From: Trichobilharzia regenti
Taxonomy: Eukaryota > Platyhelminthes > Trematoda > Strigeidida > Schistosomatidae
Reading direction: 5' to 3'
DNA: 64,000 nt
Assembly (NCBI GenBank): GCA_944472135.2
Contig: OX235264.1
Location: forward strand, 121,053,809-121,117,808
The notes under the pieces are model-generated. The model had not been told where the DNA came from. It worked only from the letters and a program-made list of their open reading frames with translations, and searched no databases. Positions 11,322 to 41,224 of this stretch are shown here, in pieces. Numbering within the stretch: position 1 is the first letter of the stretch; the number at the start of each line of letters is the position of its first letter. The position numbers and the translations under genes are program-made.

Positions 11322-12353
11322 GTGTCTAATTTAACGTCCTTGATTGCTACATCAAGCAACACACCCCCTACAAACGGCTATAATGTGTCACATAACTCAC
11401 TTGTATGCCGTAAGCGTCGAGCTGGAACTGAAGATAAAACTGTACTGACAGCTAGTATTAGCACTACTCCTAAAAATTCAGTACCCTCTACTCATACAGA
11501 ACTCCTCCCTTCACCTTATGTGCTTATCGGAAGACTCCAGCCATCAAGCTCTTCTTCAGTACTATCTTCAGAAATAGAACTTCTAAAGTTGTCTATAGGA
11601 GAACTTAAGGCTGAGTTAAGGGAAATGAAAAACAATAAGTCAGTAAATGCTGAAAACATCGAAACCAATACCGAGATATCCAAATTATCAGATCAGATCA
11701 GCGATATCAGGTTGCAGGTCTGTGAAGTGACACCACTAACTATCCTCATGAAAACTGTAAACCTTAACAAGCTTGACACAGAATCGGTAACTAAGGTAGA
11801 TAACCTCATTAATTTTGTTACCACAGAAGTAACAAAACTACTCGACGCAAAACTGAGTGCTATTGTCTACAACGTTCCGGACAATGAGGCACTAAAAAAG
11901 GTACAGCGCATCTTATTTAGTGAGGCGAAAATGCCTAACTCCAAGACTAAGTGCTATAGGCTGAAAAAGAGTCAACATGAAAAGTGTTGTCCTATTCGCT
12001 TTCAGTTCGAAACACCAGAGACCAGAACATTTATGCACTCCCAACACACACTATCGCAAGCCAGAACCTATAAAACTGTAATCGTCGGGGTGGACAAAAC
12101 TGTCATAGAAAGGCGTGCATATAATTATCTCTCTAAGACTAATTGTGATATAGGTAATAGGACATTGCACGCAGCCATTATTCCCAACCCTGTGAAAGAT
12201 ACAGTAGACCCCACCGCATCATCCCTCTCAAAACACACAGAATTATCCCATCTGAGTGCAACACCAGCCGAAAGGCCACTAGCCTGTAACCAAATAAATA
12301 ATAAAACCGTACCATCTATCACAGCAGAATCTAACATGCCACTGAATAATAAA
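11322..12353 (+). pseudogene. LINE ORF1 protein, family C, C-terminally truncated
   Basis: The ORF1 frame is open from just after a TAA near 11250, but no ATG occurs before residue about 100; a GTG lies at 11322, so the start codon is probably lost. In order it has a basic, S/T-rich N terminus, a coiled-coil segment (about residues 85-135, IELLKLSIGELKAEL), and an RRM-like block (about 180-250, VYNVPDNEALKKVQ and CCPIRFQFETPE). The C-terminal N/S/T-rich part present at 33428-33895 is missing: near 12353 the frame runs into family-A 3' UTR and continues only by chance to 12560. Its role would be RNA binding for LINE mobilisation. Confidence 0.7.
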
Positions 12354-13199
12354 TACACGAATTATAATATTGATTATACTCTTATCATATATGGTTTGAT
12401 TTACTCTACGGCTCCCTGTAGACTAACTGCCATTCTTCAGTTTACACACACTGCAGTATTGCTAGCCAAATGCCAAAATTTTGTTGGTTCTGTGTTAATA
12501 TCTTTTTATAATATATCTAGACACGTTACTTTGCAATGTCAGATGTTTACTATATATTAGTACACTAAGTCCTGCCAACCGACCTCACCTTCAGTTCATA
12601 CTACCTACATTGAACCCTAACTATAGTGTTCTGCTGAATCTTGCTCCACTATTCACAAAACCTATTCGTTTTACTCTTTAAGTTTTTAGCTTTTTATAAA
12701 GTAATCTGTTCATTAGGATGCATGCACACATATATAATATGTTCATAAAGATGTACGTGGAGACCTATTGGAAGCACTCATTAAGAAAGCTGGGGAGATG
12801 GAATATAGGGTACGAACATGTCTGGTACCAAGCAATATATTTGCGGTAGCCATAATAATCATAGACTCAGAGCCTAATATCAAGGAAGGAGGGAGGGTGA
12901 CGCTAGCTGGTGGTCACTAAGGTGAATCACCCCATTCTGTAGAAACAGCAACATGCAAATTGACGGCTCGAGATATTTCTGATTTTTATGAGGGCTTAGA
13001 TCTTCATCTTGAAAAAGATAATAATGAACGCCTTGACAGATCATGCTTCTACCTTAAATATAAACCATTCGCTCAGCCTATTGTTGAGATTCGACCAAGT
13101 GAGCTCCGCGCAGATTTATGGGGCATCTTATAAATTAACTTGCTATCCATTGTCAGATCCTTAAATACCACTTCACAACGTCTTACCTCATTTATTTTC
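12354..13199 (+). repeat. Family A 3' UTR fragment (A5)
   Basis: Matches 31520-32345 and 50430-51260 closely. The left edge is the fusion to the family-C ORF1; the right edge is the first base of the LTR array, in the middle of CTCATTTATTTTCTAATAACG as seen in sister copies. Confidence 0.8.
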
Positions 13200-13705
13200 T
13201 GATATGTATCCACATATATATATTTATGTGTGTGTATGTTGGTCTTCCTTTCTGTTTGCTCTCTTAGTCTGTGATCATTTCACTTGTATGAACTTGTCTC
13301 CTTTAATAATGTGTATTCTCCTTATATTATATTATATATAATATGAGTGTTTGTTGACAGTCCGTTGCTTGGTGACATACATCCATACATGGTGATTGTT
13401 GACATGTCTGTTATATTTCACTATGTATATGTGGATCGATACTTCATCATAATTAGCCATTCATGTTAAGACTGTCTAATGATTGTTCACAGCCTTGTCA
13501 TATATATTTCGCTCACACTATTTGTGTGAACTACTTTACTTACTTACCACTTTGGTGTGAGACCATTTTATTTTCGTCTCCTTGTGTTTGGACAATAGAA
13601 GTATCATCGTAAACCTAGTGGTCTTCTGATTTCCGCCTTCTTGCGTCAGGACTATTAGTTTCTCGACAAGTACATAACAATAAATTTAGCGAGGAGTACA
13701 TAACA
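13200..13705 (+). repeat. LTR 1 of the array
   Basis: Begins TGATATGTATCC and ends GTACATAACA. It contains a TA-rich TATA-like stretch near 13325-13345 and AATAAA at 13679-13684, close to its 3' end. The end is placed at the CA before the TGGCGACGGGG motif; a second CA and a second copy of that motif lie about 33 bp further on, so the boundary could shift. Confidence 0.8.
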
Positions 13706-13708
13706 ATT

Positions 13709-13725
13709 TGGCGACGGGGATGGGA
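13709..13725 (+). promoter_or_regulatory. Candidate primer-binding site
   Basis: TGGCGACGGGGATGGGA starts three bases after the LTR end and begins with TGG, complementary to a tRNA CCA end. TGGCGACGGGG recurs at 13741-13751. I cannot assign the tRNA. The site repeats every 2124 bp. Confidence 0.5.
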
Positions 13726-13795
13726 TAGTACTTAACAATTTGGCGACGGGGAAAACTACTATTAACCACTGAGCAGCAGAACATAACAATTTACT

Positions 13796-14500
13796 ATGGA
13801 TCGTTCTAAATTGGTATTACTATTTGAACAACAAATGAAATTAATGGAAATGTTCGTCAACCAACAGACTGGTCCAGCTTCACCTCCAAGCAATCCCAAT
13901 CATACCATGTTACCATCTGTCGACGGCATTGTGAACAGTATTTCACAGTTCAATTATAATCCAGATGCTAATGTCACTTTTGACACATGGTGTCAACGTT
14001 ATGAGGATTTATTCACTGTTGATCTCGCCTCACAAGACGATGCTTGGAAGGTGCGAGTGTTGTTACGTAAATTGGGTCCCACAGAATATGAATGGTACTG
14101 CAACCTAATTTTACCACAGAAACCACGTGACAAGTGTTTCGATGATACAATAAAGCTGCTGCGTGAACATTTTGGAGACCACTCCTCATTATTCACCATA
14201 CGATATCGTTTCCTCAAGCTGACAATGAATGAAAATGATGATTTTCTTACTCACGTTGGCACAGTCAACCGAGAATGTGAGAGATTTCGACTCAGGTCCT
14301 TAACAGATGATCAATTCAAAGCCTTGATCCTCATATGCAGTCTCCAATCTCCTCGTTTCACAGATATCCGAACTCGACTGCTCAATCAGTTAGAGCAAAA
14401 TCCTAAGTTAACTCTACATGACATAGCTGATGAATATCAACGGCTGATTAATTTGCAGAAAGACACACCTGGTCGAATCAACACCTTCGAGAAGCTCTGA
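13796..14500 (+). CDS. gag: Ty3/gypsy-type Gag (capsid part), unit 1
   Basis: 234 residues, starting at the first ATG about 90 bp after the LTR. Residues about 55-225 look like a retrotransposon capsid domain (DTWCQRYEDLF, WKVRVLLRKLG, FLTHVGTVNRECERF, LTLHDIADEYQRL). Gag assembles the particle that packages element RNA. The frame stops at a TGA in the context CTC-TGA-T; in the +1 frame the sequence continues at once into a polar linker and two zinc knuckles, so nucleocapsid lies in the next frame. Either a one-base lesion was fixed before the array grew, or +1 frameshifting is used. Confidence 0.85.
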   Translation: MDRSKLVLLFEQQMKLMEMFVNQQTGPASPPSNPNHTMLPSVDGIVNSISQFNYNPDANVTFDTWCQRYEDLFTVDLASQDDAWKVRVLLRKLGPTEYEWYCNLILPQKPRDKCFDDTIKLLREHFGDHSSLFTIRYRFLKLTMNENDDFLTHVGTVNRECERFRLRSLTDDQFKALILICSLQSPRFTDIRTRLLNQLEQNPKLTLHDIADEYQRLINLQKDTPGRINTFEKL

Positions 14501-15326
14501 TATTCATGCATTACGAAAGAGCAAAAATCTTTCATCATCCACTCCTGACCCACCTTCTTCTAATGTTCCGCAGAAATCTACACATACTCGTCCAACTTCA
14601 CAAAATACCGCAAAGAAGACCCCACCATCACCATGCTGGCATTGTGGCGCGTGGCACTTTGTAAATTCTTGTCCGTACAAAAATCATCGATGCAGCAAGT
14701 GCAAAATCATCGGTCATAAAAATGGTTTTTGTCAGCCACGCAAACCCAGATGTCAAAATCCAGCGAAAGCTCGACAAACGGTTGGTCCTAAATCTCCAAA
14801 AAGATCATTGAGTCTACGCGCAACCTGTCAAGTCACAAAACCAGCTATGCGGAAATATCTTGACCTTCAGATGAATGGTCATGATGCACGTCTGCAGCTA
14901 GATACCGCCTCTGATATTACTGTTATATCAGAGAAAATTTGGAATAATATTGGCAGACCACCAATCGCAAATACTTCTCAGACTGCTCTCAGCGCCTGTG
15001 GTGGGCGGCTCAAACTTATTAGTGAACTCGAATGTTCTGTTTCTTTCCGCAATACCAAATTCACAGGAATTTGCTACGTCATCAAGAGTCATTTAAATCT
15101 TTTGGGACTTGATTGGTTCGATCGTTTGCATCTGGCTGATGTCCCACTAAATTCGCTATGCAATGCGGTCAAGAAGCAGAAAATGTTAGACAACTCCGGA
15201 CGAAGCCGAAGCCGCAAACCCAACACGCAGATGAAACGACAGGCGTCAACAACAAGCTCAAAGGTTCCAGATAAACCCCCAGGTAAACATCCTACTAAAC
15301 ATCAATCTTCTCAAAAGGGGAGCTGA
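14499..15326 (+). CDS. Nucleocapsid knuckles and aspartic protease, unit 1
   Basis: The frame continues Gag after a +1 shift. It opens with a polar linker, then two knuckles near 14634-14715: CWHCGAWHFVNSC (CX2CX3HX4C, one residue short in the middle) and CSKCKIIGHKNGFC (canonical CX2CX4HX4C). A retroviral-type protease follows, with active-site LDTASDIT near 14900 (DTAS in place of the usual DTG/S) and the C-terminal NLLGLDWFDRL. After about 15180 the chain becomes basic and S/P/K-rich and probably comes from the end of pol, which would place the RT-integrase deletion joint near 15170-15200. The stop codon is the first three bases of the next LTR. It would mature Gag, but it has no polymerase to serve. 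Confidence 0.75.
   Translation, partial: DIHALRKSKNLSSSTPDPPSSNVPQKSTHTRPTSQNTAKKTPPSPCWHCGAWHFVNSCPYKNHRCSKCKIIGHKNGFCQPRKPRCQNPAKARQTVGPKSPKRSLSLRATCQVTKPAMRKYLDLQMNGHDARLQLDTASDITVISEKIWNNIGRPPIANTSQTALSACGGRLKLISELECSVSFRNTKFTGICYVIKSHLNLLGLDWFDRLHLADVPLNSLCNAVKKQKMLDNSGRSRSRKPNTQMKRQASTTSSKVPDKPPGKHPTKHQSSQKGS
15313..15323 (+). promoter_or_regulatory. Polypurine tract before the 3' LTR
   Basis: AAAAGGGGAGC directly precedes the LTR start TGATATG, the expected plus-strand primer site. It repeats before every LTR from 15324 to 25944; the first LTR at 13200 lacks it and instead follows LINE sequence. Confidence 0.75.
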
Positions 15327-15829
15327 TATGTATCCACATATATATATTTATGTGTGTGTATGTTGGTCTTCCTTTCTGTTTGCTCTCTTAGTCTGTGATC
15401 ATTTCACTTGTATGAACTTGTCTCCTTTAATAATGTGTATTCTCCTTATATTATATTATATATAATATGAGTGTTTGTTGACAGTCCGTTGCTTGGTGAC
15501 ATACATCCATACATGGTGATTGTTGACATGTCTGTTATATTTCACTATGTATATGTGGATCGATACTTCATCATAATTAGCCATTCATGTTAAGACTGTC
15601 TAATGATTGTTCACAGCCTTGTCATATATATTTCGCTCACACTATTTGTGTGAACTACTTTACTTACTTACCACTTTGGTGTGAGACCATTTTATTTTCG
15701 TCTCCTTGTGTTTGGACAATAGAAGTATCATCGTAAACCTAGTGGTCTTCTGATTTCCGCCTTCTTGCGTCAGGACTATTAGTTTCTCGACAAGTACATA
15801 ACAATAAATTTAGCGAGGAGTACATAACA
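15324..15829 (+). repeat. LTR 2 of the array
   Basis: Shared LTR: 3' LTR of unit 1 and 5' LTR of unit 2. I see no difference from LTR 1. Confidence 0.85.
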
Positions 15830-15919
15830 ATTTGGCGACGGGGATGGGATAGTACTTAACAATTTGGCGACGGGGAAAACTACTATTAACCACTGAGCAG
15901 CAGAACATAACAATTTACT

Positions 15920-16624
15920 ATGGATCGTTCTAAATTGGTATTACTATTTGAACAACAAATGAAATTAATGGAAATGTTCGTCAACCAACAGACTGGTCCA
16001 GCTTCACCTCCAAGCAATCCCAATCATACCATGTTACCATCTGTCGACGGCATTGTGAACAGTATTTCACAGTTCAATTATAATCCAGATGCTAATGTCA
16101 CTTTTGACACATGGTGTCAACGTTATGAGGATTTATTCACTGTTGATCTCGCCTCACAAGACGATGCTTGGAAGGTGCGAGTGTTGTTACGTAAATTGGG
16201 TCCCACAGAATATGAATGGTACTGCAACCTAATTTTACCACAGAAACCACGTGACAAGTGTTTCGATGATACAATAAAGCTGCTGCGTGAACATTTTGGA
16301 GACCACTCCTCATTATTCACCATACGATATCGTTTCCTCAAGCTGACAATGAATGAAAATGATGATTTTCTTACTCACGTTGGCACAGTCAACCGAGAAT
16401 GTGAGAGATTTCGACTCAGGTCCTTAACAGATGATCAATTCAAAGCCTTGATCCTCATATGCAGTCTCCAATCTCCTCGTTTCACAGATATCCGAACTCG
16501 ACTGCTCAATCAGTTAGAGCAAAATCCTAAGTTAACTCTACATGACATAGCTGATGAATATCAACGGCTGATTAATTTGCAGAAAGACACACCTGGTCGA
16601 ATCAACACCTTCGAGAAGCTCTGA
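15920..16624 (+). CDS. gag: Gag, unit 2
   Basis: Same 234-residue protein as unit 1, including the CTC-TGA-T end. Confidence 0.85.
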   Translation: MDRSKLVLLFEQQMKLMEMFVNQQTGPASPPSNPNHTMLPSVDGIVNSISQFNYNPDANVTFDTWCQRYEDLFTVDLASQDDAWKVRVLLRKLGPTEYEWYCNLILPQKPRDKCFDDTIKLLREHFGDHSSLFTIRYRFLKLTMNENDDFLTHVGTVNRECERFRLRSLTDDQFKALILICSLQSPRFTDIRTRLLNQLEQNPKLTLHDIADEYQRLINLQKDTPGRINTFEKL

Positions 16625-17450
16625 TATTCATGCATTACGAAAGAGCAAAAATCTTTCATCATCCACTCCTGACCCACCTTCTTCTAATGTTCCGCAGAAA
16701 TCTACACATACTCGTCCAACTTCACAAAATACCGCAAAGAAGACCCCACCATCACCATGCTGGCATTGTGGCGCGTGGCACTTTGTAAATTCTTGTCCGT
16801 ACAAAAATCATCGATGCAGCAAGTGCAAAATCATCGGTCATAAAAATGGTTTTTGTCAGCCACGCAAACCCAGATGTCAAAATCCAGCGAAAGCTCGACA
16901 AACGGTTGGTCCTAAATCTCCAAAAAGATCATTGAGTCTACGCGCAACCTGTCAAGTCACAAAACCAGCTATGCGGAAATATCTTGACCTTCAGATGAAT
17001 GGTCATGATGCACGTCTGCAGCTAGATACCGCCTCTGATATTACTGTTATATCAGAGAAAATTTGGAATAATATTGGCAGACCACCAATCGCAAATACTT
17101 CTCAGACTGCTCTCAGCGCCTGTGGTGGGCGGCTCAAACTTATTAGTGAACTCGAATGTTCTGTTTCTTTCCGCAATACCAAATTCACAGGAATTTGCTA
17201 CGTCATCAAGAGTCATTTAAATCTTTTGGGACTTGATTGGTTCGATCGTTTGCATCTGGCTGATGTCCCACTAAATTCGCTATGCAATGCGGTCAAGAAG
17301 CAGAAAATGTTAGACAACTCCGGACGAAGCCGAAGCCGCAAACCCAACACGCAGATGAAACGACAGGCGTCAACAACAAGCTCAAAGGTTCCAGATAAAC
17401 CCCCAGGTAAACATCCTACTAAACATCAATCTTCTCAAAAGGGGAGCTGA
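16623..17450 (+). CDS. Zinc knuckles and protease, unit 2
   Basis: Identical in translation to unit 1 and ending in the first bases of LTR 3. Confidence 0.75.
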   Translation, partial: DIHALRKSKNLSSSTPDPPSSNVPQKSTHTRPTSQNTAKKTPPSPCWHCGAWHFVNSCPYKNHRCSKCKIIGHKNGFCQPRKPRCQNPAKARQTVGPKSPKRSLSLRATCQVTKPAMRKYLDLQMNGHDARLQLDTASDITVISEKIWNNIGRPPIANTSQTALSACGGRLKLISELECSVSFRNTKFTGICYVIKSHLNLLGLDWFDRLHLADVPLNSLCNAVKKQKMLDNSGRSRSRKPNTQMKRQASTTSSKVPDKPPGKHPTKHQSSQKGS

Positions 17451-17953
17451 TATGTATCCACATATATATATTTATGTGTGTGTATGTTGGTCTTCCTTTC
17501 TGTTTGCTCTCTTAGTCTGTGATCATTTCACTTGTATGAACTTGTCTCCTTTAATAATGTGTATTCTCCTTATATTATATTATATATAATATGAGTGTTT
17601 GTTGACAGTCCGTTGCTTGGTGACATACATCCATACATGGTGATTGTTGACATGTCTGTTATATTTCACTATGTATATGTGGATCGATACTTCATCATAA
17701 TTAGCCATTCATGTTAAGACTGTCTAATGATTGTTCACAGCCTTGTCATATATATTTCGCTCACACTATTTGTGTGAACTACTTTACTTACTTACCACTT
17801 TGGTGTGAGACCATTTTATTTTCGTCTCCTTGTGTTTGGACAATAGAAGTATCATCGTAAACCTAGTGGTCTTCTGATTTCCGCCTTCTTGCGTCAGGAC
17901 TATTAGTTTCTCGACAAGTACATAACAATAAATTTAGCGAGGAGTACATAACA
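17448..17953 (+). repeat. LTR 3 of the array
   Basis: Shared between units 2 and 3; preceded by AAAAGGGGAGC. Confidence 0.85.
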
Positions 17954-18043
17954 ATTTGGCGACGGGGATGGGATAGTACTTAACAATTTGGCGACGGGGA
18001 AAACTACTATTAACCACTGAGCAGCAGAACATAACAATTTACT

Positions 18044-18748
18044 ATGGATCGTTCTAAATTGGTATTACTATTTGAACAACAAATGAAATTAATGGAAATG
18101 TTCGTCAACCAACAGACTGGTCCAGCTTCACCTCCAAGCAATCCCAATCATACCATGTTACCATCTGTCGACGGCATTGTGAACAGTATTTCACAGTTCA
18201 ATTATAATCCAGATGCTAATGTCACTTTTGACACATGGTGTCAACGTTATGAGGATTTATTCACTGTTGATCTCGCCTCACAAGACGATGCTTGGAAGGT
18301 GCGAGTGTTGTTACGTAAATTGGGTCCCACAGAATATGAATGGTACTGCAACCTAATTTTACCACAGAAACCACGTGACAAGTGTTTCGATGATACAATA
18401 AAGCTGCTGCGTGAACATTTTGGAGACCACTCCTCATTATTCACCATACGATATCGTTTCCTCAAGCTGACAATGAATGAAAATGATGATTTTCTTACTC
18501 ACGTTGGCACAGTCAACCGAGAATGTGAGAGATTTCGACTCAGGTCCTTAACAGATGATCAATTCAAAGCCTTGATCCTCATATGCAGTCTCCAATCTCC
18601 TCGTTTCACAGATATCCGAACTCGACTGCTCAATCAGTTAGAGCAAAATCCTAAGTTAACTCTACATGACATAGCTGATGAATATCAACGGCTGATTAAT
18701 TTGCAGAAAGACACACCTGGTCGAATCAACACCTTCGAGAAGCTCTGA
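18044..18748 (+). CDS. gag: Gag, unit 3
   Basis: Same 234-residue protein as unit 1, including the CTC-TGA-T end. Confidence 0.85.
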   Translation: MDRSKLVLLFEQQMKLMEMFVNQQTGPASPPSNPNHTMLPSVDGIVNSISQFNYNPDANVTFDTWCQRYEDLFTVDLASQDDAWKVRVLLRKLGPTEYEWYCNLILPQKPRDKCFDDTIKLLREHFGDHSSLFTIRYRFLKLTMNENDDFLTHVGTVNRECERFRLRSLTDDQFKALILICSLQSPRFTDIRTRLLNQLEQNPKLTLHDIADEYQRLINLQKDTPGRINTFEKL

Positions 18749-19574
18749 TATTCATGCATTACGAAAGAGCAAAAATCTTTCATCATCCACTCCTGACCCA
18801 CCTTCTTCTAATGTTCCGCAGAAATCTACACATACTCGTCCAACTTCACAAAATACCGCAAAGAAGACCCCACCATCACCATGCTGGCATTGTGGCGCGT
18901 GGCACTTTGTAAATTCTTGTCCGTACAAAAATCATCGATGCAGCAAGTGCAAAATCATCGGTCATAAAAATGGTTTTTGTCAGCCACGCAAACCCAGATG
19001 TCAAAATCCAGCGAAAGCTCGACAAACGGTTGGTCCTAAATCTCCAAAAAGATCATTGAGTCTACGCGCAACCTGTCAAGTCACAAAACCAGCTATGCGG
19101 AAATATCTTGACCTTCAGATGAATGGTCATGATGCACGTCTGCAGCTAGATACCGCCTCTGATATTACTGTTATATCAGAGAAAATTTGGAATAATATTG
19201 GCAGACCACCAATCGCAAATACTTCTCAGACTGCTCTCAGCGCCTGTGGTGGGCGGCTCAAACTTATTAGTGAACTCGAATGTTCTGTTTCTTTCCGCAA
19301 TACCAAATTCACAGGAATTTGCTACGTCATCAAGAGTCATTTAAATCTTTTGGGACTTGATTGGTTCGATCGTTTGCATCTGGCTGATGTCCCACTAAAT
19401 TCGCTATGCAATGCGGTCAAGAAGCAGAAAATGTTAGACAACTCCGGACGAAGCCGAAGCCGCAAACCCAACACGCAGATGAAACGACAGGCGTCAACAA
19501 CAAGCTCAAAGGTTCCAGATAAACCCCCAGGTAAACATCCTACTAAACATCAATCTTCTCAAAAGGGGAGCTGA
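18747..19574 (+). CDS. Zinc knuckles and protease, unit 3
   Basis: Identical in translation to unit 1. Confidence 0.75.
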   Translation, partial: DIHALRKSKNLSSSTPDPPSSNVPQKSTHTRPTSQNTAKKTPPSPCWHCGAWHFVNSCPYKNHRCSKCKIIGHKNGFCQPRKPRCQNPAKARQTVGPKSPKRSLSLRATCQVTKPAMRKYLDLQMNGHDARLQLDTASDITVISEKIWNNIGRPPIANTSQTALSACGGRLKLISELECSVSFRNTKFTGICYVIKSHLNLLGLDWFDRLHLADVPLNSLCNAVKKQKMLDNSGRSRSRKPNTQMKRQASTTSSKVPDKPPGKHPTKHQSSQKGS

Positions 19575-20077
19575 TATGTATCCACATATATATATTTATG
19601 TGTGTGTATGTTGGTCTTCCTTTCTGTTTGCTCTCTTAGTCTGTGATCATTTCACTTGTATGAACTTGTCTCCTTTAATAATGTGTATTCTCCTTATATT
19701 ATATTATATATAATATGAGTGTTTGTTGACAGTCCGTTGCTTGGTGACATACATCCATACATGGTGATTGTTGACATGTCTGTTATATTTCACTATGTAT
19801 ATGTGGATCGATACTTCATCATAATTAGCCATTCATGTTAAGACTGTCTAATGATTGTTCACAGCCTTGTCATATATATTTCGCTCACACTATTTGTGTG
19901 AACTACTTTACTTACTTACCACTTTGGTGTGAGACCATTTTATTTTCGTCTCCTTGTGTTTGGACAATAGAAGTATCATCGTAAACCTAGTGGTCTTCTG
20001 ATTTCCGCCTTCTTGCGTCAGGACTATTAGTTTCTCGACAAGTACATAACAATAAATTTAGCGAGGAGTACATAACA
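19572..20077 (+). repeat. LTR 4 of the array
   Basis: Shared between units 3 and 4. Confidence 0.85.
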
Positions 20078-20167
20078 ATTTGGCGACGGGGATGGGATAG
20101 TACTTAACAATTTGGCGACGGGGAAAACTACTATTAACCACTGAGCAGCAGAACATAACAATTTACT

Positions 20168-20872
20168 ATGGATCGTTCTAAATTGGTATTACTATTTGAA
20201 CAACAAATGAAATTAATGGAAATGTTCGTCAACCAACAGACTGGTCCAGCTTCACCTCCAAGCAATCCCAATCATACCATGTTACCATCTGTCGACGGCA
20301 TTGTGAACAGTATTTCACAGTTCAATTATAATCCAGATGCTAATGTCACTTTTGACACATGGTGTCAACGTTATGAGGATTTATTCACTGTTGATCTCGC
20401 CTCACAAGACGATGCTTGGAAGGTGCGAGTGTTGTTACGTAAATTGGGTCCCACAGAATATGAATGGTACTGCAACCTAATTTTACCACAGAAACCACGT
20501 GACAAGTGTTTCGATGATACAATAAAGCTGCTGCGTGAACATTTTGGAGACCACTCCTCATTATTCACCATACGATATCGTTTCCTCAAGCTGACAATGA
20601 ATGAAAATGATGATTTTCTTACTCACGTTGGCACAGTCAACCGAGAATGTGAGAGATTTCGACTCAGGTCCTTAACAGATGATCAATTCAAAGCCTTGAT
20701 CCTCATATGCAGTCTCCAATCTCCTCGTTTCACAGATATCCGAACTCGACTGCTCAATCAGTTAGAGCAAAATCCTAAGTTAACTCTACATGACATAGCT
20801 GATGAATATCAACGGCTGATTAATTTGCAGAAAGACACACCTGGTCGAATCAACACCTTCGAGAAGCTCTGA
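20168..20872 (+). CDS. gag: Gag, unit 4
   Basis: Same 234-residue protein as unit 1. Confidence 0.85.
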   Translation: MDRSKLVLLFEQQMKLMEMFVNQQTGPASPPSNPNHTMLPSVDGIVNSISQFNYNPDANVTFDTWCQRYEDLFTVDLASQDDAWKVRVLLRKLGPTEYEWYCNLILPQKPRDKCFDDTIKLLREHFGDHSSLFTIRYRFLKLTMNENDDFLTHVGTVNRECERFRLRSLTDDQFKALILICSLQSPRFTDIRTRLLNQLEQNPKLTLHDIADEYQRLINLQKDTPGRINTFEKL

Positions 20873-21698
20873 TATTCATGCATTACGAAAGAGCAAAAAT
20901 CTTTCATCATCCACTCCTGACCCACCTTCTTCTAATGTTCCGCAGAAATCTACACATACTCGTCCAACTTCACAAAATACCGCAAAGAAGACCCCACCAT
21001 CACCATGCTGGCATTGTGGCGCGTGGCACTTTGTAAATTCTTGTCCGTACAAAAATCATCGATGCAGCAAGTGCAAAATCATCGGTCATAAAAATGGTTT
21101 TTGTCAGCCACGCAAACCCAGATGTCAAAATCCAGCGAAAGCTCGACAAACGGTTGGTCCTAAATCTCCAAAAAGATCATTGAGTCTACGCGCAACCTGT
21201 CAAGTCACAAAACCAGCTATGCGGAAATATCTTGACCTTCAGATGAATGGTCATGATGCACGTCTGCAGCTAGATACCGCCTCTGATATTACTGTTATAT
21301 CAGAGAAAATTTGGAATAATATTGGCAGACCACCAATCGCAAATACTTCTCAGACTGCTCTCAGCGCCTGTGGTGGGCGGCTCAAACTTATTAGTGAACT
21401 CGAATGTTCTGTTTCTTTCCGCAATACCAAATTCACAGGAATTTGCTACGTCATCAAGAGTCATTTAAATCTTTTGGGACTTGATTGGTTCGATCGTTTG
21501 CATCTGGCTGATGTCCCACTAAATTCGCTATGCAATGCGGTCAAGAAGCAGAAAATGTTAGACAACTCCGGACGAAGCCGAAGCCGCAAACCCAACACGC
21601 AGATGAAACGACAGGCGTCAACAACAAGCTCAAAGGTTCCAGATAAACCCCCAGGTAAACATCCTACTAAACATCAATCTTCTCAAAAGGGGAGCTGA
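20871..21698 (+). CDS. Zinc knuckles and protease, unit 4
   Basis: Identical in translation to unit 1. Confidence 0.75.
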   Translation, partial: DIHALRKSKNLSSSTPDPPSSNVPQKSTHTRPTSQNTAKKTPPSPCWHCGAWHFVNSCPYKNHRCSKCKIIGHKNGFCQPRKPRCQNPAKARQTVGPKSPKRSLSLRATCQVTKPAMRKYLDLQMNGHDARLQLDTASDITVISEKIWNNIGRPPIANTSQTALSACGGRLKLISELECSVSFRNTKFTGICYVIKSHLNLLGLDWFDRLHLADVPLNSLCNAVKKQKMLDNSGRSRSRKPNTQMKRQASTTSSKVPDKPPGKHPTKHQSSQKGS

Positions 21699-22201
21699 TA
21701 TGTATCCACATATATATATTTATGTGTGTGTATGTTGGTCTTCCTTTCTGTTTGCTCTCTTAGTCTGTGATCATTTCACTTGTATGAACTTGTCTCCTTT
21801 AATAATGTGTATTCTCCTTATATTATATTATATATAATATGAGTGTTTGTTGACAGTCCGTTGCTTGGTGACATACATCCATACATGGTGATTGTTGACA
21901 TGTCTGTTATATTTCACTATGTATATGTGGATCGATACTTCATCATAATTAGCCATTCATGTTAAGACTGTCTAATGATTGTTCACAGCCTTGTCATATA
22001 TATTTCGCTCACACTATTTGTGTGAACTACTTTACTTACTTACCACTTTGGTGTGAGACCATTTTATTTTCGTCTCCTTGTGTTTGGACAATAGAAGTAT
22101 CATCGTAAACCTAGTGGTCTTCTGATTTCCGCCTTCTTGCGTCAGGACTATTAGTTTCTCGACAAGTACATAACAATAAATTTAGCGAGGAGTACATAAC
22201 A
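21696..22201 (+). repeat. LTR 5 of the array
   Basis: Shared between units 4 and 5. Confidence 0.85.
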
Positions 22202-22291
22202 ATTTGGCGACGGGGATGGGATAGTACTTAACAATTTGGCGACGGGGAAAACTACTATTAACCACTGAGCAGCAGAACATAACAATTTACT

Positions 22292-22996
22292 ATGGATCGT
22301 TCTAAATTGGTATTACTATTTGAACAACAAATGAAATTAATGGAAATGTTCGTCAACCAACAGACTGGTCCAGCTTCACCTCCAAGCAATCCCAATCATA
22401 CCATGTTACCATCTGTCGACGGCATTGTGAACAGTATTTCACAGTTCAATTATAATCCAGATGCTAATGTCACTTTTGACACATGGTGTCAACGTTATGA
22501 GGATTTATTCACTGTTGATCTCGCCTCACAAGACGATGCTTGGAAGGTGCGAGTGTTGTTACGTAAATTGGGTCCCACAGAATATGAATGGTACTGCAAC
22601 CTAATTTTACCACAGAAACCACGTGACAAGTGTTTCGATGATACAATAAAGCTGCTGCGTGAACATTTTGGAGACCACTCCTCATTATTCACCATACGAT
22701 ATCGTTTCCTCAAGCTGACAATGAATGAAAATGATGATTTTCTTACTCACGTTGGCACAGTCAACCGAGAATGTGAGAGATTTCGACTCAGGTCCTTAAC
22801 AGATGATCAATTCAAAGCCTTGATCCTCATATGCAGTCTCCAATCTCCTCGTTTCACAGATATCCGAACTCGACTGCTCAATCAGTTAGAGCAAAATCCT
22901 AAGTTAACTCTACATGACATAGCTGATGAATATCAACGGCTGATTAATTTGCAGAAAGACACACCTGGTCGAATCAACACCTTCGAGAAGCTCTGA
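22292..22996 (+). CDS. gag: Gag, unit 5
   Basis: Same 234-residue protein as unit 1. Confidence 0.85.
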   Translation: MDRSKLVLLFEQQMKLMEMFVNQQTGPASPPSNPNHTMLPSVDGIVNSISQFNYNPDANVTFDTWCQRYEDLFTVDLASQDDAWKVRVLLRKLGPTEYEWYCNLILPQKPRDKCFDDTIKLLREHFGDHSSLFTIRYRFLKLTMNENDDFLTHVGTVNRECERFRLRSLTDDQFKALILICSLQSPRFTDIRTRLLNQLEQNPKLTLHDIADEYQRLINLQKDTPGRINTFEKL

Positions 22997-23822
22997 TATT
23001 CATGCATTACGAAAGAGCAAAAATCTTTCATCATCCACTCCTGACCCACCTTCTTCTAATGTTCCGCAGAAATCTACACATACTCGTCCAACTTCACAAA
23101 ATACCGCAAAGAAGACCCCACCATCACCATGCTGGCATTGTGGCGCGTGGCACTTTGTAAATTCTTGTCCGTACAAAAATCATCGATGCAGCAAGTGCAA
23201 AATCATCGGTCATAAAAATGGTTTTTGTCAGCCACGCAAACCCAGATGTCAAAATCCAGCGAAAGCTCGACAAACGGTTGGTCCTAAATCTCCAAAAAGA
23301 TCATTGAGTCTACGCGCAACCTGTCAAGTCACAAAACCAGCTATGCGGAAATATCTTGACCTTCAGATGAATGGTCATGATGCACGTCTGCAGCTAGATA
23401 CCGCCTCTGATATTACTGTTATATCAGAGAAAATTTGGAATAATATTGGCAGACCACCAATCGCAAATACTTCTCAGACTGCTCTCAGCGCCTGTGGTGG
23501 GCGGCTCAAACTTATTAGTGAACTCGAATGTTCTGTTTCTTTCCGCAATACCAAATTCACAGGAATTTGCTACGTCATCAAGAGTCATTTAAATCTTTTG
23601 GGACTTGATTGGTTCGATCGTTTGCATCTGGCTGATGTCCCACTAAATTCGCTATGCAATGCGGTCAAGAAGCAGAAAATGTTAGACAACTCCGGACGAA
23701 GCCGAAGCCGCAAACCCAACACGCAGATGAAACGACAGGCGTCAACAACAAGCTCAAAGGTTCCAGATAAACCCCCAGGTAAACATCCTACTAAACATCA
23801 ATCTTCTCAAAAGGGGAGCTGA
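22995..23822 (+). CDS. Zinc knuckles and protease, unit 5
   Basis: Identical in translation to unit 1. Confidence 0.75.
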   Translation, partial: DIHALRKSKNLSSSTPDPPSSNVPQKSTHTRPTSQNTAKKTPPSPCWHCGAWHFVNSCPYKNHRCSKCKIIGHKNGFCQPRKPRCQNPAKARQTVGPKSPKRSLSLRATCQVTKPAMRKYLDLQMNGHDARLQLDTASDITVISEKIWNNIGRPPIANTSQTALSACGGRLKLISELECSVSFRNTKFTGICYVIKSHLNLLGLDWFDRLHLADVPLNSLCNAVKKQKMLDNSGRSRSRKPNTQMKRQASTTSSKVPDKPPGKHPTKHQSSQKGS

Positions 23823-24325
23823 TATGTATCCACATATATATATTTATGTGTGTGTATGTTGGTCTTCCTTTCTGTTTGCTCTCTTAGTCTGTGATCATTT
23901 CACTTGTATGAACTTGTCTCCTTTAATAATGTGTATTCTCCTTATATTATATTATATATAATATGAGTGTTTGTTGACAGTCCGTTGCTTGGTGACATAC
24001 ATCCATACATGGTGATTGTTGACATGTCTGTTATATTTCACTATGTATATGTGGATCGATACTTCATCATAATTAGCCATTCATGTTAAGACTGTCTAAT
24101 GATTGTTCACAGCCTTGTCATATATATTTCGCTCACACTATTTGTGTGAACTACTTTACTTACTTACCACTTTGGTGTGAGACCATTTTATTTTCGTCTC
24201 CTTGTGTTTGGACAATAGAAGTATCATCGTAAACCTAGTGGTCTTCTGATTTCCGCCTTCTTGCGTCAGGACTATTAGTTTCTCGACAAGTACATAACAA
24301 TAAATTTAGCGAGGAGTACATAACA
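23820..24325 (+). repeat. LTR 6 of the array
   Basis: Shared between units 5 and 6. Confidence 0.85.
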
Positions 24326-24415
24326 ATTTGGCGACGGGGATGGGATAGTACTTAACAATTTGGCGACGGGGAAAACTACTATTAACCACTGAGCAGCAGA
24401 ACATAACAATTTACT

Positions 24416-25120
24416 ATGGATCGTTCTAAATTGGTATTACTATTTGAACAACAAATGAAATTAATGGAAATGTTCGTCAACCAACAGACTGGTCCAGCTT
24501 CACCTCCAAGCAATCCCAATCATACCATGTTACCATCTGTCGACGGCATTGTGAACAGTATTTCACAGTTCAATTATAATCCAGATGCTAATGTCACTTT
24601 TGACACATGGTGTCAACGTTATGAGGATTTATTCACTGTTGATCTCGCCTCACAAGACGATGCTTGGAAGGTGCGAGTGTTGTTACGTAAATTGGGTCCC
24701 ACAGAATATGAATGGTACTGCAACCTAATTTTACCACAGAAACCACGTGACAAGTGTTTCGATGATACAATAAAGCTGCTGCGTGAACATTTTGGAGACC
24801 ACTCCTCATTATTCACCATACGATATCGTTTCCTCAAGCTGACAATGAATGAAAATGATGATTTTCTTACTCACGTTGGCACAGTCAACCGAGAATGTGA
24901 GAGATTTCGACTCAGGTCCTTAACAGATGATCAATTCAAAGCCTTGATCCTCATATGCAGTCTCCAATCTCCTCGTTTCACAGATATCCGAACTCGACTG
25001 CTCAATCAGTTAGAGCAAAATCCTAAGTTAACTCTACATGACATAGCTGATGAATATCAACGGCTGATTAATTTGCAGAAAGACACACCTGGTCGAATCA
25101 ACACCTTCGAGAAGCTCTGA
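24416..25120 (+). CDS. gag: Gag, unit 6
   Basis: Same 234-residue protein as unit 1. Confidence 0.85.
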   Translation: MDRSKLVLLFEQQMKLMEMFVNQQTGPASPPSNPNHTMLPSVDGIVNSISQFNYNPDANVTFDTWCQRYEDLFTVDLASQDDAWKVRVLLRKLGPTEYEWYCNLILPQKPRDKCFDDTIKLLREHFGDHSSLFTIRYRFLKLTMNENDDFLTHVGTVNRECERFRLRSLTDDQFKALILICSLQSPRFTDIRTRLLNQLEQNPKLTLHDIADEYQRLINLQKDTPGRINTFEKL

Positions 25121-25946
25121 TATTCATGCATTACGAAAGAGCAAAAATCTTTCATCATCCACTCCTGACCCACCTTCTTCTAATGTTCCGCAGAAATCTA
25201 CACATACTCGTCCAACTTCACAAAATACCGCAAAGAAGACCCCACCATCACCATGCTGGCATTGTGGCGCGTGGCACTTTGTAAATTCTTGTCCGTACAA
25301 AAATCATCGATGCAGCAAGTGCAAAATCATCGGTCATAAAAATGGTTTTTGTCAGCCACGCAAACCCAGATGTCAAAATCCAGCGAAAGCTCGACAAACG
25401 GTTGGTCCTAAATCTCCAAAAAGATCATTGAGTCTACGCGCAACCTGTCAAGTCACAAAACCAGCTATGCGGAAATATCTTGACCTTCAGATGAATGGTC
25501 ATGATGCACGTCTGCAGCTAGATACCGCCTCTGATATTACTGTTATATCAGAGAAAATTTGGAATAATATTGGCAGACCACCAATCGCAAATACTTCTCA
25601 GACTGCTCTCAGCGCCTGTGGTGGGCGGCTCAAACTTATTAGTGAACTCGAATGTTCTGTTTCTTTCCGCAATACCAAATTCACAGGAATTTGCTACGTC
25701 ATCAAGAGTCATTTAAATCTTTTGGGACTTGATTGGTTCGATCGTTTGCATCTGGCTGATGTCCCACTAAATTCGCTATGCAATGCGGTCAAGAAGCAGA
25801 AAATGTTAGACAACTCCGGACGAAGCCGAAGCCGCAAACCCAACACGCAGATGAAACGACAGGCGTCAACAACAAGCTCAAAGGTTCCAGATAAACCCCC
25901 AGGTAAACATCCTACTAAACATCAATCTTCTCAAAAGGGGAGCTGA
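25119..25946 (+). CDS. Zinc knuckles and protease, unit 6
   Basis: Identical in translation to unit 1. It is the last unit before the truncated LTR. Confidence 0.75.
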   Translation, partial: DIHALRKSKNLSSSTPDPPSSNVPQKSTHTRPTSQNTAKKTPPSPCWHCGAWHFVNSCPYKNHRCSKCKIIGHKNGFCQPRKPRCQNPAKARQTVGPKSPKRSLSLRATCQVTKPAMRKYLDLQMNGHDARLQLDTASDITVISEKIWNNIGRPPIANTSQTALSACGGRLKLISELECSVSFRNTKFTGICYVIKSHLNLLGLDWFDRLHLADVPLNSLCNAVKKQKMLDNSGRSRSRKPNTQMKRQASTTSSKVPDKPPGKHPTKHQSSQKGS

Positions 25947-26213
25947 TATGTATCCACATATATATATTTATGTGTGTGTATGTTGGTCTTCCTTTCTGTT
26001 TGCTCTCTTAGTCTGTGATCATTTCACTTGTATGAACTTGTCTCCTTTAATAATGTGTATTCTCCTTATATTATATTATATATAATATGAGTGTTTGTTG
26101 ACAGTCCGTTGCTTGGTGACATACATCCATACATGGTGATTGTTGACATGTCTGTTATATTTCACTATGTATATGTGGATCGATACTTCATTATAATTAG
26201 CCATTCATGTTAA
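25944..26213 (+). repeat. LTR 7, truncated
   Basis: The first 270 bases of the LTR, with one C-to-T change near 26191 (CATTATAATT versus CATCATAATT). Identity to the other LTRs ends after CATGTTAA, where LINE endonuclease sequence begins. Confidence 0.85.
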
Positions 26214-28660
26214 TACGATAACGTACTCAGCAACATATTTAGTGTTGCATCCAATCTCCCCTTCAGTTATAATATAATTGGAGGTGACTTCAATTTGCCT
26301 GATATATCATGGCGTACACTTCGTGGACCCTCGAGGTATGATAATCTTCTTAATTCCATCATTACTGGAGGATGGACGCAACACATAAATGTACCCACTA
26401 GGTCCAATAACATTCTTGATCTTATATTCACGATCAACGTAGCACCATCTACAATTCATGTGGGACATGAATTCCCAGGTAGCGATCATAAAATAGTTGC
26501 ATGTTCGTTTAACATTTCCCCTGAAACTATACACAGAAACGAAGTTAGTCGGACACCTATAAGACCATACACGCGGGTTGATTGGGACTTGTATCAGGAC
26601 TTGATTAGATACTCTAATTGGGATTCCTACTTTACCAATGACTCCTTAGAGGAAGTCCTTAAAAACTTCTATGACAATATACAGTCGGTTAATGATGTCA
26701 TAGCGCCTGTGAAACTGATTAAATTCAAAATCCCTCAAGGTGATTTTATTCCAATATCATTAAGAAGAAGTTTGCGGAAGCATTCATTAAGTTACTATAG
26801 ACATGACGACTTATCGTCGTTAATCGCTATCAAAACAATCCTCATTAGAATCCATGAGTTAAAAAATCTAAGTCTTAGGAATAAAGAAACGCGGGCAATT
26901 CAGTCGCCACATAACACTGGAGAAATAGCCAAACTCTTCAAAAGTAGGTTAACTAACTCCAAATCAACATATCCAAAAATAATACACCTAGGTGGCATTA
27001 CTCACGAAAGTGCTGAGGATATATGTGAGGTGTTTAGCACGCACTTTGCCAAACTGTACACTCTAGAAAATGACCAGGATATAGATTTCCCTCGTAAAAC
27101 AGAAAAGTGTCTAAGCGATGTAGTCTTAAACGCCCAAGAAATCGATAAAGCTATCACAACTCTTAAGCTTACTAATACTCCCGGCCCAGATGGAATGTCT
27201 TCCGTCCTCTTAAAAAATGGTGGAAATGACATGAATCTACTTCTTCTCAAGATATTTTCAACTTCGATAAGGAGTGGAACATATCCAAATAGCTGGAAGA
27301 AATCCTACGTTGTACCCATTCACAAAACCGGACCTACAGCGGACATAGATAATTACCGCCCCATCAACATTACTTCCGTAGTTTCACGTGTGATGGAAAA
27401 GATTGTAAAGAAGCAAATTGTTCAGTATTTGCTCTCGAATGACTTAATATCCCCTTTCCAATACGGTTTCCTAAATAGAAGATCGTGCATTACGTGCCAG
27501 TTAGATTATTTCGATCACATTACTGAATGTGTAGACAAAGGTCGTTCGGCAGCAACATTATTTCTAGATGTTAGGAAAGCTTTTGATAAAGTCCCACATA
27601 AAAGACTCATACTGAAACTCCTATCTTATGGAATAAGTGGAAGGCTTCTTGAGTGGATAACTTCCTTTCTTACAGGAAGAGAACAGTTAGTTAAAGTCAA
27701 CCATCACTTATCAACATCCAAACCGATAACCAGCGGCGTGATACAAGGTAGTGTTCTTGGCCCTACCCTATTCATTGTATTCATAAATGATATTGTCTCT
27801 ATGATCAAGTATGGCAAGCCATACCTCTTTGCAGATGACCTCAAAGTTGTCTATGATTTTGACTATAATGATATGAATATTGTTAGTAAAATCCAAGAAG
27901 ACCTAAATAGTCTATGTAATTGGAGTGAAAAGTGGCAGTTAACGTTCAATCCAGCTAAATCTGGGATAACATACTTCGGACGTTGGAAACCTAGCATGTG
28001 TCTATACATGTACGGTGACCTTGTCTCAAACACAAACACAGTCACAGATCTCGGGATAACATACTCAGATCTTACCTTTACTGAACATGCAAATAAGGTG
28101 GTATCTGATTGTAAACGTCTAACCGGCTTTGTGCTACGCAACTTTTACACTCCAGAAGCCAGATTAGCCATATATAAGATATGCATTCGCCCCAAACTTG
28201 AATACTGTGCCCACTTATACAGTAGCTTCAAGTCGGCAGACAGAAAAAAGTTGAAAGTGTCCAAAGATTCCTTACGAAACGCATATTAGGCTATGGTCAG
28301 CAAATAGAATACCTTGACAGATGTATTCGACTGGACTTAGAGCCCTTATGGTTAAGGAGAGTGAAGTGCAATTTATTTCTCTTATTCAAAGTTATAAGAA
28401 AGCACTGTAACAGTAACTCGTCCATAACCTGGGCTAATCCTAAATCGTATGGACTACGCAACCACAACTACCTTCTCAAGGTTAACACCCATAAACTCAC
28501 CACTAGAGCTAACTTCTTCACCATTAAATATTGCAAACTTTGGAACCAACTACCCTCTGAGATAAGATCCTGTGAAAGGCCTGACAGTTTCAAAAGGAGC
28601 CTAGAAAAACATATAAACATGTCCACCCTAGCCCGCCTCAAAGATCTCAACTGCTGGTAG
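26214..28660 (+). CDS. LINE ORF2: endonuclease (partial) and reverse transcriptase, one -1 frame change
   Basis: The frame is open from the truncation point at 26214 to 28289. It contains the second half of an APE-type endonuclease (IIGGDFNLPDISW, EFPGSDHK), then a CR1-type RT: NYRPINITSVVSRVMEK, FLDVRKAFDKVPH, SGVIQGSVLGP, FADDLK (27828-27845) and NPAKSGITYFGRW. At 28244-28250 lies A-AAA-AAG in zero-frame phase (AGA AAA AAG). A -1 step there continues without a stop for 137 codons to 28660, giving the ESVQRFLTKR block and C terminus found in sister families; without it translation ends 12 codons later. No other lesion is seen in about 815 codons. It would prime reverse transcription at a nicked target. 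The first half of the endonuclease is missing, so the copy itself is dead. Confidence 0.88.
28244..28250 (+). promoter_or_regulatory. Candidate -1 slippery heptamer in RT
   Basis: A AAA AAG in the correct phase, exactly where homology moves to the -1 frame. Sister copies have A AAA AAA at the same place (49646-49652, the A-run at 30744-30750, and on the minus strand near 5656-5662). I see no obvious pseudoknot downstream. Confidence 0.45.
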
Positions 28661-30405
28661 AGTGGAGAGACAATGGCTTTTCAATATTTAACTACGGAAA
28701 GTACACTAGTCCCAATACCAATATAATAACACTTAGTAATTATGTAGGTTCAATACTTGAAATTCGATTGTCATTAAAATACTTAAAATGATTAAAATAG
28801 CTATGCGGCAAGTGTTCTCTTGCTTTACCATGCTTGTTTCCCTTATAACACTCAGTTATTGAGCCTAATGTATTCTTTGATAATACGAATTATGACACTG
28901 ACTATGCTCTTATTATACATAGATTGATTTACTTTACGACTACCTGTAGTACTAACTACCCTTCTGTAGTATTGTTAAACAAATGCTGAAATTTTGTTGG
29001 TTCTGTTAATATCTTTTTATAATATATGTAGACAGGTTACTTTGCAATGTCAAATGTTACTATATACAAGACTGTCATGATAATTTAGTACACTAAGTCC
29101 TGCCAACCGACCTTACCTTCAGTTCATACTACCTACATTGATCCCTAACTATATTGTTCTGCTGAATCTTGCTTCACTATTCACAAAACCTATTCTTTTT
29201 ATTCTTTAAGGTTCTAACTTCTTGTAAAGTAATCTGTTCATTAGGACGCATGCATACATATATAATGTTCATAAAGATGTACGCGGAGACCTATTGGAAG
29301 CACTCATTAAGAAAGCTAGGGAGATGGAATATGAGGTACGAACATGTCTGGTACCAAGCAATATATTTGCGGTAGCCATAATAATCATAGTCTCAGAGCT
29401 TAACATCAAAAAAGGAGGGAGGGTGGCGTTAGCTGATCAGTAGATATGGTGGGGGTCACTAAGGTGAATCGCCCCATTCTGCAGGAACAGCAATATGCAA
29501 ATTAAAGGCTCGAGATATTTCTGATTTTTATGAGGGCTTAGATCTTTATCTTGAAAAAGATAATAATGAACGCCTTGACAGATCATGCTTCTACCTTTAA
29601 ATATATACCATTCGCTCAGCCTATTGTTGAGATGCGACCACGTGGGATCTGCACAGATTTATGGGGCATCTTATAAACTAACTTGCTGTCCATTGACTGA
29701 TCTTTAAATACCACTTCACAATGTCTTATCTCATTCATTTTCCAATAACGTCTTTACTTGATCCTCATTATTTCCCATTAAACCTAACATTTTACAGCTC
29801 TTTATGACTTATTATATTCCTACTCTCTGAAGGTTACGGTTGCACATTAAATGCACAAAAAGGTATAAAACAAAAACAACTGGCACAACTGAGGATAAAT
29901 GTATTAAAACCAAAAGTGGACATCATGATAGTACGAGATATACGTGTAGCATTATACATTGCAAATGAACGTTGTCAGCCTAGGGAGTTTTCTTTTTTTA
30001 ATGCATTTATTAATGATACTTGCACTTACCTATTTCATTACAATTTAATGATTCACCTCAGCACTTTAACTTTTCTAAAACAGCTTTCAATCCCTTGTAA
30101 ACGTTGTACTTACCTCAATTTTGGTTGGTTATCGTATGCCTACAACCACGGGATGAAAACGAAACGAAGTCGATTTTCCCGCTCAACCTGGAGGACAACT
30201 GTACAATTCAATAACTATACGTCCTGGTTCAGACAATGAGTGTAATTATATATATATATCAAATATTCAACTGTTGAAACATTATTAACTTGTAGACAAT
30301 CTACGATTTGATATTATATCAAACTTGACCGTGCCTGTAAAAATGGCATGCATTTTCATGTAAATTTATATGTTTACATGAGAATATACATTATTATTAT
30401 TATTA
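28661..30405 (+). other. Family A 3' UTR (A1)
   Basis: No coding frame of note. The end has two successive hairpins (GTGCC...GGCAT; TCATGTAAA...TTTACATGA at about 30330-30380), then GAATATACATT and an ATT repeat. Confidence 0.75.
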
Positions 30406-30412
30406 AAATATT

Positions 30413-31160
30413 AAGGCGTTTGGAGCGCAAAGTGGCAACTGACTTTCAACCCGGACAAGTGCGGTATAACCCGCCTTGGACGCTGGAAACCGATAATGTG
30501 CCTATATATGTACGGTGAGCTCCTCTCAAAACTGAACACAGTCACAGATCTCGGGATAACATCCTCAGATTTATCCTTTTCCGATCATGCAAATAAGGTT
30601 GTATCTGACCGTAAACGACTTACTGGCTTTGTACTGCGTAACTTCTACACCCAAGAAGCAAGATTAGCTGTATATAGGACATGTATCCGTCCCAAACTTG
30701 AATACTGTGCTCTCCCATTTAGTAACCTCAGGTCTGTAGACAGAAAAAAATCGAAAGTCTCCAGAGATTCCTCACGAAACGCATAGTAGGGTTCGACCAA
30801 CAAGTGGAATATGTTGACAGATGTGTACGTCTGAAACTAGAGCCTCTGTGGTTAAGGAGAGTGAAGTGCAACTTATTTCTACCCTTCAAAGTCATCAGGA
30901 AACATTGTTACAGTAACTCATCCACAACGTGGGAAAATATTAAATGATATCAGCTGCGAAACCACGACTACCTTGTCAAGGTGGCTGCCCACAGAAAATC
31001 CATTAGGGCAAACTTATTCACCATAAAATATTGCACTCTTCGGAACCAACTACCACCTGAAACAAGATGTTGTGAAAACCCCGATGGGTTCAAACGGAGC
31101 CTAGAAAGACACTTTAACATGTCCACGCTAGCTCGTCTAAAAGACCACAACTGTTGGTAG
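30413..31160 (+). pseudogene. LINE RT C-terminal part, family A (A2)
   Basis: Covers the region after the palm: NPDKCGITRLGRW, TDLGITSSDLSFSDHANK, YCALPFSNLRS. It has the -1 frame change at the seven-A run near 30744-30750, then continues to an in-frame TGA near 30945 and to the TAG at 31158-31160. Same lesions as A3 and A4. Confidence 0.75.
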
Positions 31161-33973: not shown

Positions 33974-33981
33974 TCCAGGAT

Positions 33982-41212: not shown

Positions 41213-41224
41213 CTGGTACGACCC

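Follow-up and report, generated by a model that had tools for sequence, protein, structure and literature searches.

Tandem insertions of long terminal repeat (LTR) retrotransposons are known in rice, Arabidopsis, almond and cotton, and the report on these plant arrays discusses sister exchange, transposition of tandem products and one-LTR circles as possible sources (PMC11899658). Cassandra, a terminal-repeat retrotransposon in miniature (TRIM), forms tandem arrays that reach 13 LTRs (PMC7215508). Here we analyze a tandem array of a gag-protease LTR retrotransposon in the bird schistosome Trichobilharzia regenti, which lies in a stretch of 64,000 nucleotides (C3:121053809-121117808; hereafter the window), along with its relatives in the 954 Mb of genome that were searched. 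The array (window positions 13200-26213, plus strand), delimited by self-comparison, comprises, as assembled, six identical 2124-bp LTR-gag-pro units followed by a truncated seventh LTR. The best explanation, and probably the correct one, is that a single insertion of a non-autonomous Ty3/Gypsy-type element was expanded in place by homologous recombination between LTRs.

The six units span 13200-25943, with starts at 13200, 15324, 17448, 19572, 21696 and 23820, and 0 differences from the first unit were seen over 6 × 2124 bp (12,744 bp). At a lag of 2124 the window matches itself without a break over 13199-24067 (10,869 consecutive bases), which is far beyond chance. Each unit contains an LTR starting TGATATG, a motif resembling a primer-binding site (PBS), TGGCGACGGGG, an open reading frame (ORF) of capsid-type gag, a nucleocapsid-protease ORF, and the purine run AAAAGGGGAG. 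This polypurine tract lies at 15313-15322 (plus strand) before LTR 2 and recurs every 2124 bp; as a first-pass annotation of the window had noted, such a run precedes each inner LTR. The same annotation described six units sharing LTRs, which agrees with the sequence base for base, and identical Gag and protease translations, which correspond to ORFs of 237 and 292 amino acids present in all six units. It also reported the lack of reverse transcriptase (RT) and integrase, and a domain search of the first unit's two ORFs likewise found neither. Seven LTR starts had been counted; six of these belong to full LTRs, and the seventh is a stump joined to the ORF of a long interspersed nuclear element (LINE).

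On the left, the array begins cleanly with the start of an LTR, within an older LINE copy (12353-13199, plus strand; 98% to 31518-32370 in repeat matches) that it breaks. The window has four more copies of this LINE, all of which run on without interruption. At the right edge, the seventh LTR (25944-26213, plus strand) is cut after 270 nt and carries one substitution, at 26192; a 7-base word search did not find its remaining 236 bp elsewhere in the window. Joined to the stump is a 5'-truncated LINE (26214-30402, plus strand, with its 3' end placed from repeat matches) that begins inside its own endonuclease and RT ORF (26214-28289) and is related to the left-flank LINE (85.6% over the common part). 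Simple insertion of this LINE into LTR 7 was considered and set aside, as the LTR remainder is nowhere else in the window and a later deletion or rearrangement would also be required. A second array, at C2:28577626, has its terminal LTR cut at nearly the same place (base 281, compared to base 270 here), each stump abutting a different element.

A search for further arrays of the 2124-bp type, suggested at the outset, succeeded. In the first genome search, 40 of 3642 candidates were scored, and all copy counts given here are lower bounds. We used probes in which an LTR is framed by the internal end and the internal start, so that LTRs with element on both sides are detected. The probe derived from the window gave at least 41 matches (40 candidates scored), 23 of them full-length, at eight loci. 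A corresponding probe from another array gave at least 40 matches, 26 of which are full-length or one base short; ten had already been seen, and six loci were new. Together, these searches place at least 39 shared internal LTRs at no fewer than 14 loci, on contigs C1, C2, C3, C5, C6 and C8. The sequence at C2:59.1M contains four further shared LTRs beyond those from the probe searches. Hence, from the assembled copies, this retrotransposon family appears prone to tandem stacking, which would then be no peculiarity of one locus.

We read six arrays closely: A1 in the window (six units), A2 at C1:177.06M (seven), A3 at C1:64.3M (six), A4 at C2:28.56M (seven, plus the cut LTR mentioned above), A5 at C1:95.9M (two) and A6 at C2:59.1M (six). 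Five of the six thus have 6 or 7 units. Among the other loci, C1:112.82M has at least five shared LTRs, C8:44.31M spans about five periods, and C8:17.24M and C8:119.36M have a broken appearance in the stretches examined. The first-pass annotation had likened the array to a satellite and raised the possibility of W linkage. A functional satellite derived from the element, such as a centromeric or W-linked heterochromatin block, would be in keeping with a homogeneous six-unit tandem array in a repeat-rich window. This idea is barely credible given that the closely read arrays reach at most seven units, with none longer than ~15 kb, and that shared LTRs occur on six contigs; W linkage in particular is unsupported, though none of these contigs could be named Z or W.

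The distribution also bears on the quality of the assembly. In principle, a shorter or longer structure could have been turned into six perfect units and misjoined to the right LINE; the complete identity of the units and the abrupt right edge inside an LTR are what such an error would produce, and a limit on read length could explain why the larger arrays are of similar size (13-15 kb). Shared LTRs at so many loci argue against this, and because the other arrays have distinguishable units, three of them with clean target site duplications (TSDs), a pure artefact is quite improbable as the source of the structure.

For insertion footprints, we inspected 16 single, solo or one-ended copies of the family, 12 of which have both flanks present. 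An exact 5-bp duplication was seen in 10 of these 12 (in one case beside a changed LTR end), and the remaining two show one mismatch. Four of the closely read arrays are intact at both ends, and perfect 5-bp duplications surround three of them, A3 (ATACT), A5 (ATACC) and A6 (TGCAC). These three, and not A2, have the full layout of a shared-LTR array, with n internal regions, n + 1 LTRs, no TSD between units and one outer TSD. It follows that most of the arrays that can be tested in this way lie within the footprint of one insertion. Six independent insertions in the window can be rejected, since neither a TSD nor host DNA lies between units. Recombination between LTRs predicts precisely this, as neighbours then share an LTR with nothing in between. 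Separate neighbouring insertions might instead have been fused by LTR recombination with loss of the intervening DNA. A2, which has no TSD, more than one unit type and LTRs scattered in the LTR tree, is the array that would suit such a history. We regard it as very unlikely in general, given the perfect TSDs of the other intact arrays and the finding, described next, that internal regions within an array are each other's closest relatives.

Mean internal-region divergence within A1 to A6 is 0.00, 1.08, 1.39, 0.39, 0.12 and 0.94%, respectively, and ranges from 2.4 to 5.3% between arrays. A FastTree phylogeny built from 36 internal regions places every array in a group of its own (support for A2, 0.83). 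The LTRs of A1, A3, A4, A5 and A6 likewise group by array. Because internal regions group in this way, most of the arrays had separate origins; A2 is the least certain case. If the six window units were read independently, their identity and a mutation rate of 8.1e-9, that of Schistosoma mansoni, place the last homogenisation of the window array at no more than ~29,000 generations ago, a bound that is void under gene conversion or assembly error.

A2 has variants that are found in its first and last LTRs and in none of the six between them, and its inner variants extend across adjacent units. In A3, one haplotype is found in LTRs 1, 6 and 7 and in units 1, 5 and 6, and units 2-4 have different ones that diverge from it by up to 3.0%. 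We considered units 3 and 4 of A3 as simple block recombinants and rejected this, as their variants are interspersed with those of unit 2. Among two-state sites within an array, both states occur elsewhere in the sampled family at 29 of 40 in A2, 23 of 49 in A3, 14 of 34 in A6 and 3 of 16 in A4. By Fisher test, A2 differs significantly from A4 (p 0.0003). On these comparisons, A4 and A1 look like the amplification of one unit, A2 clearly holds variation from other family copies, and A3 probably does too. The two internal regions of A5 differ at 2 sites, and two of its LTRs are identical.

Such mosaic units in A3 and A2 would also be expected if each array had integrated at once as a ready-made concatemer, made by rolling-circle copying or as a read-through multi-unit cDNA, with no growth thereafter. 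Perfect single TSD pairs around multi-unit arrays are natural in that case, and integration in blocks would suit the recurrence of 6-7 units. Tandem transcripts from one-LTR circles are named as a possible route in the plant report (PMC11899658). Several observations make a concatemer unlikely. Variants common to runs of neighbouring units and to both outermost LTRs resemble the outcome of exchange within an array already in place, the tree keeps the internal regions of different arrays apart, and a template of 13-15 kb would be long for a 2.1-kb element.

We therefore return to expansion in place by recombination, for which the following course is proposed. A non-autonomous element that keeps its LTRs, PBS, gag-protease and polypurine tract would be mobilised by the RT and integrase of pol-bearing relatives. 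One copy would have inserted into the old LINE, and homologous recombination between LTRs would have converted this insertion into an array. The last expansion in the window would be recent and would have copied one frame-broken unit (see below), and later damage would have removed the right end. Other arrays would represent the same process at other ages, some of them having taken in sequence from other family copies, either through one-LTR circles or cDNA recombining into a resident LTR or through ectopic conversion. We infer LTR-LTR homologous recombination as the engine, a term that covers unequal sister exchange, recombination of one-LTR circles or cDNA, and ectopic conversion alike. The first-pass annotation had proposed unequal crossing-over or one-LTR circles acting on a pol-less unit; the shared-LTR structure, the missing pol and a role for recombination are all supported, and the unequal-exchange and circle routes are not separated.

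A number of observations weigh against this account. The recurrence of 6-7 units is not predicted by free-running unequal exchange. A2 has no outer TSD (AACCT versus GTCTT), its LTRs do not group together in the LTR tree, and its units 1 and 7, which are not neighbours, share internal variants. The third LTR of A5 is 4.0-4.3% from the other two despite a perfect TSD, which fits simple sister exchange only if the crossover fell at the very start of the LTR. In the comparison of two-state sites with A4, neither A3 (p 0.076) nor A6 (p 0.20) differs significantly. In the window, truncation of the right LTR at 26213 leaves the array's own TSD pair unreadable. Finally, the support comes from assembled sequence.

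The gag capsid ORF (13796-14500, plus strand) matches DUF7083 (PF23309, E 4.8e-21) and ends by a frame break; the nucleocapsid-protease ORF (14448-15326, plus strand), in another frame, matches gag-asp_proteas with E 7.9e-05, below the Pfam curated cut-off. Both recur every 2124 bp. An uninterrupted gag-pro frame (at least 510 codons) is present in 25 of 28 units of A2-A6, in one of two single copies, and in none of the six units of A1, all of which have one frame break in common between the capsid and nucleocapsid parts. Coding capacity had been claimed for each period of the window array, and this claim fails for the uninterrupted frame when compared with the five other arrays. A functional frameshift at the gag-pro junction is judged unlikely, because those 25 units read one frame. 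The ratio of nonsynonymous to synonymous differences (pN/pS) is 0.17 in the capsid part (217 codons, 651 nt), based on 28 pairs from eight lineages that are not independent of one another. Thus, by sequence comparison, the gag-pro-only form looks like a family with a conserved protein, and the window array looks like the product of multiplying a member whose frame was already broken.

This family consists of non-autonomous LTR retrotransposons with gag and protease, the same structure being found in six arrays and two single copies. Identical TG...CA LTRs, the PBS-like motif and the polypurine tract, along with the 5-bp TSDs of other copies, mark it as an LTR retrotransposon, and its lineage within Ty3/Gypsy is putatively CsRn1-like. 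The nearest gag relatives are T. regenti proteins (93-96%), and a cluster of 19 T. regenti proteins has the same gag-pro layout and also shares the C-terminal tail. No relatives of the protease ORF were found among viral contigs, in a search that possibly did not include the window's own genome, and no solved structure matched by sequence. With a 1.6-kb internal region containing gag and protease, the unit is not a TRIM element, which would be noncoding with a very short internal region.

How did the pol-less form arise? The unit stops after protease, and the protease-RT-integrase order is present in a related copy at C2:10712247-10717503, which is flanked by the 5-bp duplication GTCAT. In order, it comprises an LTR related to that of our unit (95-96%), gag-pro, a stretch of RT (98% to the T. 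regenti protein P0004), an integrase region (rve E 2.8e-19, with an H2C2 zinc finger), a match to the 3' tail of our unit, and a 3' LTR. The tail (15188-15322, plus strand) has its 81% match downstream of the integrase and marks the presumptive junction of a pol deletion. A search for the tail in longer proteins gave the gag-pro cluster only, and its position came from the genome copy. The pol-bearing copy measures 5.26 kb, compared to 2.60 kb for a single pol-less copy (C6:56395839-56398440). Because a copy with RT and integrase shows matching flanks of the deletion, the pol-less unit looks like an internal deletion derivative that lost ~2.5-2.6 kb of pol.

RT-bearing relatives are numerous. 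P0004 is encoded at C2:47120429 (100% over 440 residues), and at least 114 matches to RT-bearing copies were found (96 of 9368 candidates scored), 28 of which form a more distant group at 60-61%. Many have open frames, the longest of 1421 amino acids, and such relatives could supply RT and integrase in trans. Some lie about one element apart on the same strand: three at C1:157699778-157710312 (intervals of 4618 and 4597), others at C4:56057875-56063879 (4751) and C8:151729034-151734873. Tandem stacking may therefore extend to pol-bearing relatives, judging by this spacing. Eleven copies (C2:10713829, C7:44193794 and nine others) match P0004 at residues 1-339 and 416-440 and not between; they may represent a distinct variant of RT or have a changed frame. 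We considered these as a second deleted class and rejected the idea, as the unmatched stretch is similar in length to the part of P0004 in whose place it stands.

The limits of the LTR were set from other genome copies. Matches of the LTR probe start at query base 1-4 and many end at 507-513, and array and single copies align over LTR bases 1-506. These match ends, together with the window's TG...CA and the PBS-like motif, define LTR 1 as 13200-13705 (506 bp, plus strand), and the LTRs of the units at 15324, 17448, 19572, 21696 and 23820 are the same. The primer may be a tRNA-Arg-like molecule. Two PBS-bearing modules follow the LTR on the plus strand. The first (13706-13737; ATT + TGGCGACGGGG, ending ACTTAACA) is an extra of the window unit type, and the second, a leader module (13738-13788), is present also at other 5' LTR junctions. 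A module of ~30 nt (ATT, the PBS-like motif and ...ACATAACA, which copies the LTR end) is present 0-3 times in the interval that separates the LTR from the target duplication, with one occurrence in a 52-nt form. Among 15 copies (12 single or solo copies and three arrays), eight have at least one module and seven have none. Examples are found at window positions 13706-13788, at LTR ends L011, L018, L019, L022 and L027, and at the ends of A3, A5 and A6. It seems that the 3' end of the integrated DNA moves in steps of whole modules, perhaps through choice among reiterated PBSs.

A broader idea, which we offer with reserve as rather doubtful, is that such arrays are a normal product of the life cycle. 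Several members of the family would give rise to extrachromosomal one-LTR circles or concatemers, and these would enter the genome, by recombination or integration, as blocks that have ~6-7 units (13-15 kb) and a single target duplication. Arrays would in this way collect unit types from across the genome, and the LTR-PBS boundary would also be mobile by way of the ~30-nt PBS/LTR-end module.

The window contains several other repeats. On the minus strand at 41622-45414, 369-bp direct repeats (99.7% alike) surround a 494-amino-acid DUF1759 ORF, with no other ORF of at least 150 amino acids between the repeats. DUF1759 is linked to BEL/Pao, and this is possibly a gag-only element of that type. 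A 3.6-kb duplication (30403-33974 and 49305-52879; 99.6% identical) is recent. Tandem copies of ~750 bp at 1-1556 and 40115-41214, up to 99.75% alike, have 34-bp internal repeats and an ORF of ~170 amino acids that lacks a Pfam match. A perfect 352-bp inverted repeat (48358-48709 and 48906-49257) lies beside a LINE ORF, and a Type I hammerhead ribozyme (40.3 bits) is encoded on the minus strand at 61578-61623.

Among the origins proposed for satellite DNA is the duplication of transposons in tandem. To our knowledge, early stages of satellite formation in which coding capacity is kept have seldom been described. In T. regenti, one animal genome holds fresh (the window), slightly diverged, mosaic and broken arrays of one family, alongside single copies and solo LTRs from which the footprint of insertion can be read. 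The order of insertion, expansion, homogenisation and decay thus becomes testable within a single family, which also offers a natural way to test whether extrachromosomal DNA contributes to the growth of arrays.

TR-GAG elements of plants are LTR elements that have gag and lack pol. Unlike these, the T. regenti unit retains protease, and a pol-bearing relative shows the matching flanks of the deletion. The KERV blocks of kangaroos are reportedly large. In that megasatellite, the provirus structure is reportedly kept in tandem, with shared LTRs and a centromeric location, whereas the T. regenti arrays are short and dispersed (Koga 2023). For Drosophila, double insertions of transposons in tandem have been put forward, by the title of the study, as seeds of satellites (McGurk and Barbash 2018). 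In the literature searched, by title and the start of the abstract and with subscription papers mostly outside its reach, no shared-LTR arrays in Trichobilharzia or schistosomes were found. Cassandra has 5S sequence in its LTR and no gag or pol coding, whereas our unit has gag-protease (PMC7215508). The plant arrays resemble those of T. regenti in that LTRs alternate with internal regions, inner LTRs are shared, TSDs lie at the flanks and most members are Gypsy elements. The two plant loci treated in detail have two units each (PMC11899658), compared to 6-7 in five of the six closely read arrays here, and the T. regenti case further differs in its animal host, its gag-pro-only unit and its mosaic units. 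Shared-LTR arrays are thus a known kind of structure, and what appears to be new here, by the literature searched, is an animal gag-pro family that forms them at many loci, mostly with 6-7 units and with mixed unit types.

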